42,033 nt of DNA from Rhodanobacter sp. (lineage in GTDB: Bacteria; Pseudomonadota; Gammaproteobacteria; Xanthomonadales; Rhodanobacteraceae). The stretch covers positions 1-42,033 of the forward strand of contig SCRM01000012.1 of assembly GCA_004298045.1 (NCBI GenBank). Direction: 5' to 3'. Under the pieces are notes generated by a model, which was not told the DNA's origin, did not search any database, and was given only the letters and a program-made list of their open reading frames with translations. This document shows, piece by piece, positions 4,228 to 7,487 of this stretch (position 1 is its first letter; each line of letters starts with the position of its first letter). Position numbers and translations under genes: made by a program.

Positions 4228-5193
4228 TCAGTCCACATACAACGAACTCACCGACTCGCCATAGGCGATGCGGCGGATGGTTTCGGCCAGGAGCTCGGCC
4301 ACCGAGAGCTGGCGAATCTTGGGGCACGCCTTGGCCTCGGGACGCAGCGGCAGGGTGTCGGTGACGACCAGGCGATCGAGGCTGGATTTTTCCAGGTTGC
4401 CGAGCGCCGGGCCGGAAAGCACCGGGTGCACGCAGTAGGCCACCACCTTCTTCGCGCCGCGCTCCTTGAGTGCCGCCGCGGCGGCGCACAGGGTGCCGGC
4501 GGTATCGACGATGTCGTCCACCATGACGCAGGTCTTGCCGGCAACGTCACCAATGATGTTCATCACCGTCGCCACGTTGGCGCGCGGCCGGCGCTTGTCG
4601 ATGATGGCGAGATCGGCGTCGTCCAGCCGCTTGGCAACCGCGCGCGCGCGCACCACACCGCCAACGTCGGGGCTGACCACGACCATGTCGTCGGTGCTGT
4701 AGTGGCGCCAGATGTCGGCCAGCAGCACCGGCGAGGCATAGACGTTGTCCACCGGGACATCAAAAAAGCCCTGAATCTGTTCGGCGTGCAGGTCGACCGT
4801 GAGTACGCGGTCGATGCCGGCGGTGCTGATGAGCTTGGCCACCAGCTTGGCGGTGATCGGCACGCGGGTGGAGCGCGGGCGGCGATCCTGGCGGGCATAA
4901 CCGAAATACGGCATCACCGCGGTGACGGTGGTGGCCGAGGCGCGCTTGAGGGCATCGGCCAGCGCCAGCAGCTCGACCAGGTTCTTGGCGCTCGGCGCAC
5001 CGGTCGGCTGGATCACGAACACTTCCTGCCGGCGAACGTTCTCCTCGATCTCGATCTGCACCTCGCCGTCGCTGAAGGTGCTGACCAGCGCCTTGCCGAG
5101 CGGCACGCCCAACCGATGGGCGATCTCCTCGGCAAGTTGCGGATGCGCCTTGCCGGCGAACAGCATCATCGGACTGGAATCGGTCCTGTCCAC
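4228..5193 (-). CDS. prs: Ribose-phosphate pyrophosphokinase (PRPP synthetase)
   Basis: A 321-residue protein that makes PRPP from ribose 5-phosphate and ATP for purine, pyrimidine, histidine and NAD synthesis. Visible motifs are the N-terminal [17 protein letters not shown], flexible-loop region [33 protein letters not shown], and the PRPP loop [13 protein letters not shown]. The start is a GTG at 5193, supported by GAGG nine bases upstream; the in-frame ATG pair eight codons later has no ribosome site. tRNA-Gln lies 33 bases upstream and is probably in the same transcript. Confidence 0.96.
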
Positions 5194-5226
5194 GCTTGTA
5201 TACCTCGATACCCGTTACTGGCTGGA

Positions 5227-5304
5227 TGGCTGGGGCGGCAGGATTCGAACCTGCGCATGCGGGAATCAAAATCCCGTGCCTTGACCAGACTTGGCGACGC
5301 CCCA
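5227..5304 (-). tRNA. tRNA-Gln (TTG anticodon)
   Basis: The reverse strand folds with acceptor stem TGGGGCG/CGCCCCA, D-arm GCCAAGTCTGGTCAAGGC, anticodon loop TTTTGAT (TTG), T-arm with GGTTCGAATCC and encoded CCA, 78 nt. It decodes CAA/CAG. It lies between the GNAT/IspE-like gene and prs, a position conserved in xanthomonads. Confidence 0.97.
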
Positions 5305-5388
5305 CCAATGGTTTTGCGGTGCCGCCCCGTGGCGACGCCTTGGGCCGGCCCCATGGCCGACTGCGAGCGAACCGTCCTGTTTCGCCCG

Positions 5389-6759
5389 TCAACGCTGCCT
5401 GCGACGATGGCGCGACAAGGCTTCGTGCAAAGGCGAAACCGCCGCACCGGTGGCAACCCGGGCCGTGAACGCCGACGGACAACGGGCCGCGATGGCCTGT
5501 GCCTGCTCCAGCGTACGCACTTCCAGAAAGCCGCAACCGCCACTGCCAGAAAGCCGTGCCGCCCCATGGCGACCCAACCAATCCAGCGCCGCCGCCACCT
5601 GCGGATGGTGCTTGCGCACCCCGGCAGTGAAGGCATTATCCGCTGCTTCGCCCGAAATAAAGGCGGAAATTGTCGCTGGCGACGTCGGAGGTGTCAATTC
5701 CGCGACCGCTGGCGTGATGGCCGAAGCCCCCCGTTCACCGGGATCGAGCAACACGTAATGCCGGCGCGGCAGATGCAACGCGGTGATCTGTCCCCCCATG
5801 GCGACCCAGGCTGCCTCGCCGCACAGAAAGGCCGGCACGTGCGCGCCAACGCGGCGCGCCACGGCGGCCAATTCGTCCTCGCCGAGTCCGCATTGCCATA
5901 GTTGATTGAGCGCCACGAGCACGGTCGCGGCATTCGAGCTGTCGGCACCGAGGCCACCACTGGGTACCAGTTTCCGCCCCAAGGCCAGATCGGCCCCCGG
6001 CCCGTCACCGGCCTGTTCGCGCAACAGGCGCGCAGCGCGCATGGCCAGGTTTTCCTCGGATACGCCACCGAGGCAGTGGATTGCAGCATCGGCGCGCGCG
6101 CGCACCTGCAATTCGGTACCGGCGTCGAGCAGGCGATAGGCCGCTTGCAGCACGGCGCTGTCGTCGTCACCCCGACCCACGACGCGCACGCACACATTGA
6201 GTCGTGCCGGCGCCGGCCAGGCATGCCAATCATGCGCGGCGAGCGGCGCCAGCGCGCGGCTCATGAACACGCGCAGATGGTCGGGGAACCCGTTTTCGCG
6301 GTCGCGCGCCAGCTCCGGCGCAAACGCCGGCGCGTGCTTGTCGACGATCACGAAGCCGTGTTTGGCGTAGAACGGCGCGTTCCACGGCACATCGGCCAAA
6401 GTGCCCAGATCCACCCGCCGATAGCCCGCTGCGCGCGCCCAGGCGCAGGCGTGTTCGAGCAAGGCAGCGCCAATGCCGTGCTGGCCGTGCGCTGGCAGCA
6501 CGTCGATCTCGGCAACGCCGATCGCGTCTGCGCGCGACATCGGATCGAGCCAGATAAAACCGAGTTCATTGCCGTCGATATCCAGCGCCACCCACACATA
6601 ACCGCGCACCAGCGCCCGCAACAGCTCGCCGCGCGGCATCTCCACCGCTGCATACGCCGGCCACACCGGGTGCGTACGAAACAACTGCACCGCCTTGCGC
6701 TCGATCGTGCACAGGGCATCCAGTTGGTCGGGCTCGGCGCGTTCGATGGTGTACGCCAC
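5389..6759 (-). CDS. GNAT acetyltransferase fused to a degenerate IspE-like (GHMP kinase) domain
   Basis: A 456-residue fusion. Residues 1-168 form a GNAT domain with acetyl-CoA loop QHGIGA at 93-98 in the segment EIDVLPAHGQHGIGAALLEH. Residues ~178-450 resemble IspE, the CDP-methylerythritol kinase of isoprenoid synthesis: WPAPARLN, ATVLVALNQLWQCGL, ARLSGSGGC and the terminal VSPLHEAL. Key residues are changed: the catalytic Lys of PAKLN is Arg186, the catalytic Asp of LGADVP is His307 (VGAHVP), the GYH motif is replaced by DSA, and GGGLGGGSS is SGGLGADSS. The domain is probably kinase-dead, though it holds the conserved ispE position between lolB and prs. The GTG start at 6759 has GAGG nine bases upstream. 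The frame is continuous across the junction. What the fusion does is unknown. Confidence 0.85.
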   Translation of the reverse strand: MAYTIERAEPDQLDALCTIERKAVQLFRTHPVWPAYAAVEMPRGELLRALVRGYVWVALDIDGNELGFIWLDPMSRADAIGVAEIDVLPAHGQHGIGAALLEHACAWARAAGYRRVDLGTLADVPWNAPFYAKHGFVIVDKHAPAFAPELARDRENGFPDHLRVFMSRALAPLAAHDWHAWPAPARLNVCVRVVGRGDDDSAVLQAAYRLLDAGTELQVRARADAAIHCLGGVSEENLAMRAARLLREQAGDGPGADLALGRKLVPSGGLGADSSNAATVLVALNQLWQCGLGEDELAAVARRVGAHVPAFLCGEAAWVAMGGQITALHLPRRHYVLLDPGERGASAITPAVAELTPPTSPATISAFISGEAADNAFTAGVRKHHPQVAAALDWLGRHGAARLSGSGGCGFLEVRTLEQAQAIAARCPSAFTARVATGAAVSPLHEALSRHRRRQR

Positions 6760-6785
6760 CGGGATTTACCTCGGCGCGAAAGGAC

Positions 6786-6847
6786 TGTCGGGCTGAGGCC
6801 CAACCCACAGGAGCACCGGCTTTCGTGGGTCGGGATTCATCCCGACC
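6786..6847. repeat. REP-like doublet, copy 1
   Basis: Two adjacent hairpins: TGTCGGGCTGAGGCCCAACC and TCGGGATTCATCCCGACC, joined by a short spacer and flanked by CCCAC/GTGGG that can also pair with each other. It sits in the 119-base gap between the lolB stop and the GNAT/IspE-like start. It closely matches the element at 26811-26870 in sequence, length and order of parts. Confidence 0.7.
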
Positions 6848-6878
6848 AAGGGCAGCCGAGCGGCGAAACGCTGAGGGT

Positions 6879-7487
6879 TCATGGCTGCAAATCCCAATTC
6901 TCGATCGACAGCCGCACCTTGTACGGCGGACGCGCGGCAAACACGGTGGTGGGCAGTGGCGGCGTGCGGGTGGTGTCCCACGCGCGGTACTCCACGCTCC
7001 AGCCATCCTGCGTCAGGAGCGACGGCAAGCGGTTGTCGCCAAAGGCGATCTCGGCCGGGCCACTGTCGGCACGCAAGCCCAGTACCCACGCGCGCAGGTC
7101 GCGCATCGGCACTTCCCAGCCGAGCGCACGCCGCATCAACGCCTCGGCATCCGGGCCATGCCGCGGGCCGCCATCCAGGCCTTCCAGCACGGCGCCGCTC
7201 GGGTCGCCATGCAACTCGAAACTGCGTCCGGTGATTGGCGTGCGGAATACGAACCGGTAGTGCTCGCCGTCCTGGGTCCAGGTGAAACCGCCGCTGCCGC
7301 CCTCATGGCCGTCGGAGACGCCGAGCCGTCCGCTCAATACCCAGTGGCTGGTGTGCACCAGTGCCTGCTCGCGCGCAAGTTGCGCGTTGAGCAATCCAGC
7401 GTCGCCCTTGATGCGCACCATCTGCGGTGCGCATGCCGCCAGCAGCAGCGGCAGCGCCGCCACCCAAAGTCGCACATGACGGTTCAT
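6879..7487 (-). CDS. lolB: Outer-membrane lipoprotein insertase LolB
   Basis: A 202-residue lipoprotein that receives lipoproteins from LolA and inserts them in the outer membrane. It starts MNRHVRLWVAALPLLLAAC, with lipobox LAAC giving lipidated Cys19. The mature part carries LolB-type features: HWVLSGRLGVSDGHEGGSGGFTW, ELHGDPSGAVLEG and a C-terminal beta region PPYKVRLSIENWDL. The start ATG overlaps the stop of the upstream TPR gene (ATGA), indicating coupled translation. Its place before the ispE position supports the call. Confidence 0.9.
   Translation of the reverse strand: MNRHVRLWVAALPLLLAACAPQMVRIKGDAGLLNAQLAREQALVHTSHWVLSGRLGVSDGHEGGSGGFTWTQDGEHYRFVFRTPITGRSFELHGDPSGAVLEGLDGGPRHGPDAEALMRRALGWEVPMRDLRAWVLGLRADSGPAEIAFGDNRLPSLLTQDGWSVEYRAWDTTRTPPLPTTVFAARPPYKVRLSIENWDLQP

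Follow-up and report, generated by a model that had tools for sequence, protein, structure and literature searches.

Why does a bacterium keep, at the ispE locus, a reading frame in which a GNAT acetyltransferase is joined to an IspE domain that has lost its catalytic residues? This question is raised by the window, the whole stretch of 42,033 nucleotides analysed here (Rhodanobacter sp., contig SCRM01000012.1), and the features concerned are collected in Table 1. The first-pass annotation, made from the letters of the DNA, had described one frame joining GNAT to IspE with the QHGIGA loop, and lolB, tRNA-Gln and prs as neighbours, and all of this is confirmed by the present analysis.

Table 1. 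Features of the fusion locus in the window
Feature	Position	Strand	Basis or remark
Fused GNAT + IspE ORF	6759..5389	(-)	One continuous frame, 456 aa, GTG start
GNAT acetyltransferase domain (putative), residues 1-170	6250..6759	(-)	Pfam PF13508/PF00583
IspE-derived GHMP-kinase domain, residues 176-456, active site lost	5392..6234	(-)	TIGR00154, Pfam, residue comparison
Sigma70-like promoter candidate TTGACA-N17-GACAAT within the IspE coding sequence	5697..5669	(-)	Upstream of tRNA-Gln/prs
tRNA-Gln (TTG), first gene 3' of the embedded promoter candidate	5227..5304	(-)	ARAGORN
prs, ribose-phosphate diphosphokinase (name presumed)	4228..5193	(-)	ORF translation; agrees with the E. coli order lolB-ispE-prs
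lolB, outer-membrane lipoprotein insertase	6879..7487	(-)	PF03550 137.7 bits, TIGR00548 75.6 bits

The GNAT half matches PF13508 (46.5 bits) and PF00583 (44.5 bits) above their cut-offs at residues 45-137, and QHGIGA at residues 93-98 corresponds to the acetyl-CoA loop, which has the form (Q/R)xxGx(G/A). This half is a putative acetyltransferase. Its closest solved GNAT chain is PA2271 (PDB 9cr5; 77.5 bits over window residues 3-163), from which it differs by being fused to IspE. In the other half, PF00288 GHMP_kinases_N (44.3 bits, residues 237-314) and PF08544 GHMP_kinases_C (38.4 bits, residues 374-431) are both above cut-off, whereas the ispE profile TIGR00154 reaches 130.3 bits at residues 179-448, below its cut-off of 138.7; the fusion of the congener G010 scores 272.4 bits on the same profile. 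The IspE half thus resembles true IspE (TIGR00154; E. coli 1oj4) in its GHMP family matches, in its place between lolB and prs and in a score of about 163 bits to solved IspE chains, but it lacks the catalytic Lys and Asp, the Tyr-His pair and the glycine loop, falls below the family cut-off and sits behind a GNAT domain.

Comparison with E. coli IspE (from NC_000913.3, with five substituted window codons read directly) placed R186 (CGA) at K10, H307 (CAC) at D141, S201-A202 at Y25-H26, so that GYH reads DSA, and R262 at K96. The ATP loop GGGLGGGSS reads SGGLGADSS, including G101S and G107D, and T181S is a further substitution; N12, G103 and L104 are retained. The replacements of Lys10, Asp141, GYH and the loop listed by the first-pass annotation were hence borne out. 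K10 and D141 are present in all 85 comparison rows (genomes that are HMGR-negative or without an HMGR test), and in a 90-row alignment of fusions and IspE the Lys, Tyr-His, glycine loop and Asp are intact in nearly all rows, with the window genome (G000), G063 and G031 standing out as exceptions. When conserved sites were defined as those at least 95% identical in 51 intact fusions, the window protein kept 61/61 in the GNAT half and 90/136 in the IspE half, and the congener G010 kept 60/61 and 136/136, respectively. By this count GNAT is constrained and IspE is relaxed in the window. The losses concentrate on what we take to be 11 active-site positions, each of them present in 51/51 intact fusions (8/11 lost vs 40/127 other conserved sites, p = 0.016, for a list picked with several of the changes already known). 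Such wide loss, together with the 85 unchanged rows, is explained neither by chance nor by a single base error. Moreover, a second ispE was not found in the window genome (96% complete), in keeping with what the first-pass annotation expected; the other match was a 21-bit partial one inside the HMGR/mevalonate-kinase frame. From these residue comparisons we infer that the IspE domain of the window is probably no longer a kinase, as had been proposed.

If the kinase is dead, the first-pass annotation offered three ways out: a kinase supplied elsewhere, a mevalonate pathway, or an altered enzyme. The gene inventory of the window genome (3.26 Mb, 22 contigs, listed contamination 0.18%) favours the second, and the first is not supported by any second ispE. 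No DXR match was found in this genome, and a joined query retrieved dxs and an ispD-like gene but nothing else of the MEP set, with ispF, ispG and ispH all missing; the same query retrieved dxs, ispD, ispF, ispG and ispH in both MEP controls (G010, G052). The ispD-like gene scores 144.1 bits against a profile cut-off of 181.3, lacks the counterparts of the signature residues R20 and K27 (E. coli IspD numbering), and is directly followed by truD at the expected place of ispF. Its frame (contig C3, locus L153, about 5968-6645(-)) is open and degenerate.

On the same 435-kb contig as this degenerate ispD lies a mevalonate operon (L147), which contains mvaD, a phosphomevalonate kinase-like gene, an HMGR/mevalonate-kinase fusion and idi. 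Diphosphomevalonate decarboxylase (mvaD; TIGR01240, 277.9 bits), HMGR (TIGR00532, 403.1 bits), mevalonate kinase (TIGR00549, 234.6 bits) and the isomerase (idi; TIGR02150, 146.5 bits) all exceed their cut-offs, and the phosphomevalonate kinase-like GHMP protein reaches 67.2 bits to TIGR01220, with a cut-off of 165.7. HMGR and mevalonate kinase form one 756-aa protein (contig C3, L147 7487-9757(-)), a fusion also seen in G063 and G037. HMG-CoA synthase was not found in the window genome, either as a PF01154 match or with the g18 enzyme as query, so that the mevalonate pathway there may be incomplete; TIGR00748 gives 43 bits in this genome and is non-discriminating, being below cut-off in 10/10 genomes including carriers of HMG-CoA synthase. 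A match to this enzyme is also absent in Rhodanobacter G052, which has HMGR and the full MEP set, and one might speculate that HMG-CoA in both genomes derives from leucine breakdown. The HMG-CoA synthase gap aside, replacement of the MEP pathway by the mevalonate pathway is well supported in the window genome, and IPP of this organism would be made by the mevalonate route.

Our survey can help to understand the order in which fusion and decay occurred. Among 119 genomes searched, the window's own included, 108 gave a match; in many genera of Rhodanobacteraceae both domains lie in one frame, and in other genera of the family and order the match is to IspE alone. Fusion-type loci in a collection of named genomes belong mostly to Rhodanobacter, Dyella and Luteibacter, on which the assignment of the surveyed family to Rhodanobacteraceae rests. 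Because the GNAT-IspE fusion is widespread with intact kinase motifs, loss of the kinase came after the fusion. The proposal of the first-pass annotation that the old domain had been reused for the acetyltransferase is not supported, given this greater age of the fusion, of which 51 intact examples were used here.

Of 233 genomes of the family, 44 have HMGR (by genus, 16 in g18, 14 in g24, 10 in g19, 2 in g26 and 1 each in g25 and g1), and the sole positive genome of g1 is that of the window. In 43 of the 44 the open frame that contains HMGR is 755-960 aa long, and in the remaining one it is split over two contigs. DXR is above cut-off in 13 of the HMGR-positive genomes, degenerate or split in 6 and without a match in 25; the 2 HMGR-negative genomes in this survey both have DXR. 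All 13 genomes with DXR above cut-off keep K10, Y25-H26 and D141, with exceptions confined to the loop, where G148 lacks one Gly and G051 has one Gly changed to Ser. The 31 HMGR-positive genomes without a proper DXR present a different spectrum: in 15 the fusion protein found no counterpart (E 1e-8), 5 have GNAT only, 1 (G031) has GNAT with half an IspE whose first half is gone, 9, the window among them, have a degenerate IspE, and 1 (G181) has a near-intact IspE. The 15 without a match belong to g24 and g26, where the examined MEP-bearing members have IspE without GNAT. In the genera where the fusion occurs, GNAT is retained in 16/16 of these genomes. Genus g18, which includes Dyella lipolytica and D. 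mobilis, shows every stage, with IspE intact, degenerate or deleted and GNAT always present; the five genomes with IspE deleted and GNAT kept are G170, G172, G174, G177 and G178. This stepwise decay after the same replacement also speaks against reuse of the domain. The state of G181, a 91%-complete MAG in which IspE is near-intact and ispH present without a DXR match, counts against a simple replacement picture.

Six g18 genomes (L269-L274) have a DXR with a broken DSEH motif; in five the frame is full-length and open, in one it is split in two, and single DSEH residues remain in some of these copies. D. lipolytica (G051, L197) has an intact-looking DXR and IspE and, by the joined query, no ispD, ispF, ispG or ispH; this may represent a transitional state, or else a partial pathway that serves another purpose. 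A tree of the HMGR/mevalonate-kinase protein places the window beside G148 of g26 (99/100) and outside both g24 and g18/g19; it holds 22 of the 31 proteins tried, since the motif search did not read the other 9, and the long branch of the window makes its placement unsure. The IspE of G148 (L276/L260) is intact except for its missing ATP-loop Gly. Separate acquisitions of mevalonate genes across the genera are likely.

The IspE coding sequence also contains a promoter-like site. The TTGACA-N17-GACAAT match is the single one in 5180-6900, where 0.2 are expected from shuffles. Its strict form, TTGACA-N17-SACAAT, occurs in 99/114 genomes, the window included, and a relaxed form in 108/114; the site is absent from G067, G077, G087, G095, G102 and G108. 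Among named fusion loci, 44 of 49 were read, and 43 of these have the strict form somewhere in the locus. The codons of the hexamers are fixed to an unusual degree: Leu-Thr at the -35 is TTG-ACA in 51/51 intact fusions, although over the remaining codons of these genes TTG accounts for 267 of 2514 for Leu and ACA for 117 of 959 for Thr, and at the -10 the codons are ACA in 50/51 and ATT in 49/51. As the genes are related, these counts are not independent of one another. Both hexamers are present in 9/9 degenerate IspE copies, and the spacer sequence varies. In the five g18 genomes with IspE deleted, the GNAT stop codon is separated from tRNA-Gln by DNA that includes 54-59 nt left over from ispE, and this remnant holds TTGACA-N17-CACAAT. 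We infer that the embedded site serves as a promoter for tRNA-Gln, and probably for prs as well.

Promoters inside an upstream coding sequence are comparable in that the promoter of a downstream gene lies within an open frame, but here the hexamers are fixed across most compared genomes and outlive the gene. In E. coli, the leader of prs has a length that would let it begin within ispE. The hexamers are absent at the homologous E. coli ispE codons.

Selection on the two halves is less simple than the count of conserved sites suggests. Raw dN/dS between the window and G010, by a counting method, is 0.50 for GNAT and 0.36 for IspE, which does not fit a simple view of GNAT as constrained and IspE as relaxed; it is the conserved-site count that separates the halves. 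Non-conserved GNAT sites vary freely in the window's genus, and dN/dS in the window lineage says little because the congener is just 59% identical. The degenerate copies of g18 offer closer pairs. In five pairs of four dead IspE copies, dN/dS by counting was 0.20-0.37 for the N part of the domain and 0.10-0.19 for its C part, compared with 0.05-0.13 for GNAT of g18 and 0.07 for IspE in a near-intact pair, and neutral simulations for these pairs gave medians of 0.74-0.86 with lower 2.5% points of 0.45-0.61; one bootstrap interval, 0.25-0.54, overlaps the neutral range, and some of the divergence, which was measured in g18 and not in the window lineage, may predate kinase death. The values of 0.20-0.37 mean that some selection persists in the dead domain, reduced and not absent. 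The low dS of residues 368-451 in g18 fusions (0.25-0.44 compared with the rest of the gene) is found in dead and near-intact copies alike and goes beyond what a promoter of 29 nt explains. The idea that the conserved C-terminal stretch of the dead copies is promoter only was rejected, as conservation reaches well beyond the promoter.

Open reading frames point in the same direction. The nine degenerate full-length copies have no stops or frameshifts, and their indels are all in frame. Simulated neutral decay to the level of the window gave on average 2.4-4.8 stops, with zero stops in 1 to 36 of 400 runs, according to the mutation bias and starting sequence chosen, and the same simulation for six g18 copies gave zero stops in 5 to 66 of 400. 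An open frame with in-frame indels is thus expected less often under pure neglect; copies that lost the frame are absent from these tests by construction, so the tests are flattered. Models were predicted from one set of 30 sequences for both proteins. The AlphaFold model of the window protein had a pLDDT of 63.7 and a pTM of 0.42, compared with 90.6 and 0.90 for the intact fusion of D. lipolytica, whose model matched E. coli IspE 1oj4 with a TM of 0.95 on target and the GNAT PA2271 9cr5 with 0.89. The window protein is 52-61% identical to the other rows of the alignment, whereas D. lipolytica is 66-88% identical to every row except that of the window. Since no other row diverges as much as the window's, part of this drop in confidence is expected. 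The models suggest that the IspE half of the window folds less well.

How should a dead domain with a constrained frame be read? Recruitment as a pseudoenzyme, in which the fold is kept and serves the acetyltransferase by binding a ligand or by lending stability, would account for the dN/dS of dead g18 copies below neutral simulations, for the nine degenerate copies without stops and for the concentration of losses on the active site, and through the residual purifying selection in g18 a weaker form of the reuse idea of the first-pass annotation stays alive. However, the domain was deleted with GNAT kept in five g18 genomes and its first half was lost in G031, and the modelled fold of the window protein loses confidence. 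Free-standing DXR in g18 and IspD in the window genome are degenerate but open without any GNAT, and open frames therefore need no special role. The supporting numbers carry the limits given with them: the dN/dS values may include time before kinase death, and the active-site list was chosen knowing several changes. We consider such recruitment rather improbable. Selection of the dead IspE as a partner domain of GNAT in the window lineage and independently in g18, with the same DNA also hosting the tRNA-Gln/prs promoter, is in our judgement unlikely. The reading we prefer, and hold to be probable, is that the IspE half is a relic of a replaced pathway, attached to a conserved GNAT and hosting the promoter of its neighbour.

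Two further explanations concern the deadness itself. An altered CDP-ME kinase that is still active would agree with a TIGR00154 score just 8 bits below cut-off, with the conservative Lys to Arg change and with the kept N12, G103 and L104, but dxr, ispF, ispG and ispH were not found in the genome, which leaves neither supply nor use of the kinase substrate, and D141H, Y25S, H26A and the loop changes are combined in one protein, with K10 and D141 present in all 85 comparison rows; we regard this as very improbable. That assembly error, chimera or contamination gave the kinase its dead look is scarcely credible. The genome is indeed a draft of 22 contigs, but the changes extend across the whole domain with the frame open, both GNAT and lolB give ordinary matches to their families, a single contig carries the mevalonate operon together with the degenerate ispD, contamination is low, and the same process is seen in other genomes.

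According to the relic reading, a bifunctional GNAT and IspE gene would have arisen in an ancestor of much of Rhodanobacteraceae. The window lineage would then have acquired the mevalonate operon, with mvaD, phosphomevalonate kinase, HMGR/mevalonate kinase and idi, and this operon would have taken over IPP synthesis. Subsequently, dxr, ispF, ispG and ispH may have been lost, and IspD and the IspE domain would have lost their active sites. The gene may have been kept because the GNAT half remains an enzyme under constraint and the IspE DNA carries the promoter of tRNA-Gln and probably of prs, and the IspE half would now be a relic whose reading frame and fold are still under some selection. This order of events is the one by which we would connect the states seen in the family.

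Neither pathway replacement nor pseudoenzymes are new as such. The review PMC13001223 deals with the replacement or doubling of the MEP pathway by mevalonate genes within bacterial genera; mevalonate operons of patchy distribution, incomplete MEP pathways and decaying pathways are described in the parts consulted, as are Legionella without phosphomevalonate kinase and mostly without HMG-CoA synthase, the latter gap resembling that of the window genome. The main text of that paper has no mention of Dyella, Rhodanobacter or xanthomonads, and its consulted parts do not describe graded decay in a GNAT-IspE fusion or a promoter inside ispE. Our literature search returned no report linking Dyella, Rhodanobacter and the mevalonate pathway, none on ispE fused to a GNAT acetyltransferase or on the PA2271 acetyltransferase, and none on a promoter with ispE, prs and lolB. 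New here are the fused setting, the graded series, and a widely conserved promoter-like site in ispE that outlives deletion of the IspE domain.

The family thus offers a natural series of essential-pathway replacement, in which intact, half-decayed and deleted copies are found beside an incoming mevalonate operon. It suggests why the gene of a dead enzyme persists, namely its link to a useful partner domain and the neighbour's promoter concealed in it. Annotators should be aware that calling such a gene ispE can be wrong, as can deducing a MEP pathway from it. Moreover, bacteria of this kind are predicted to be insensitive to inhibitors of the MEP pathway without any resistance gene.
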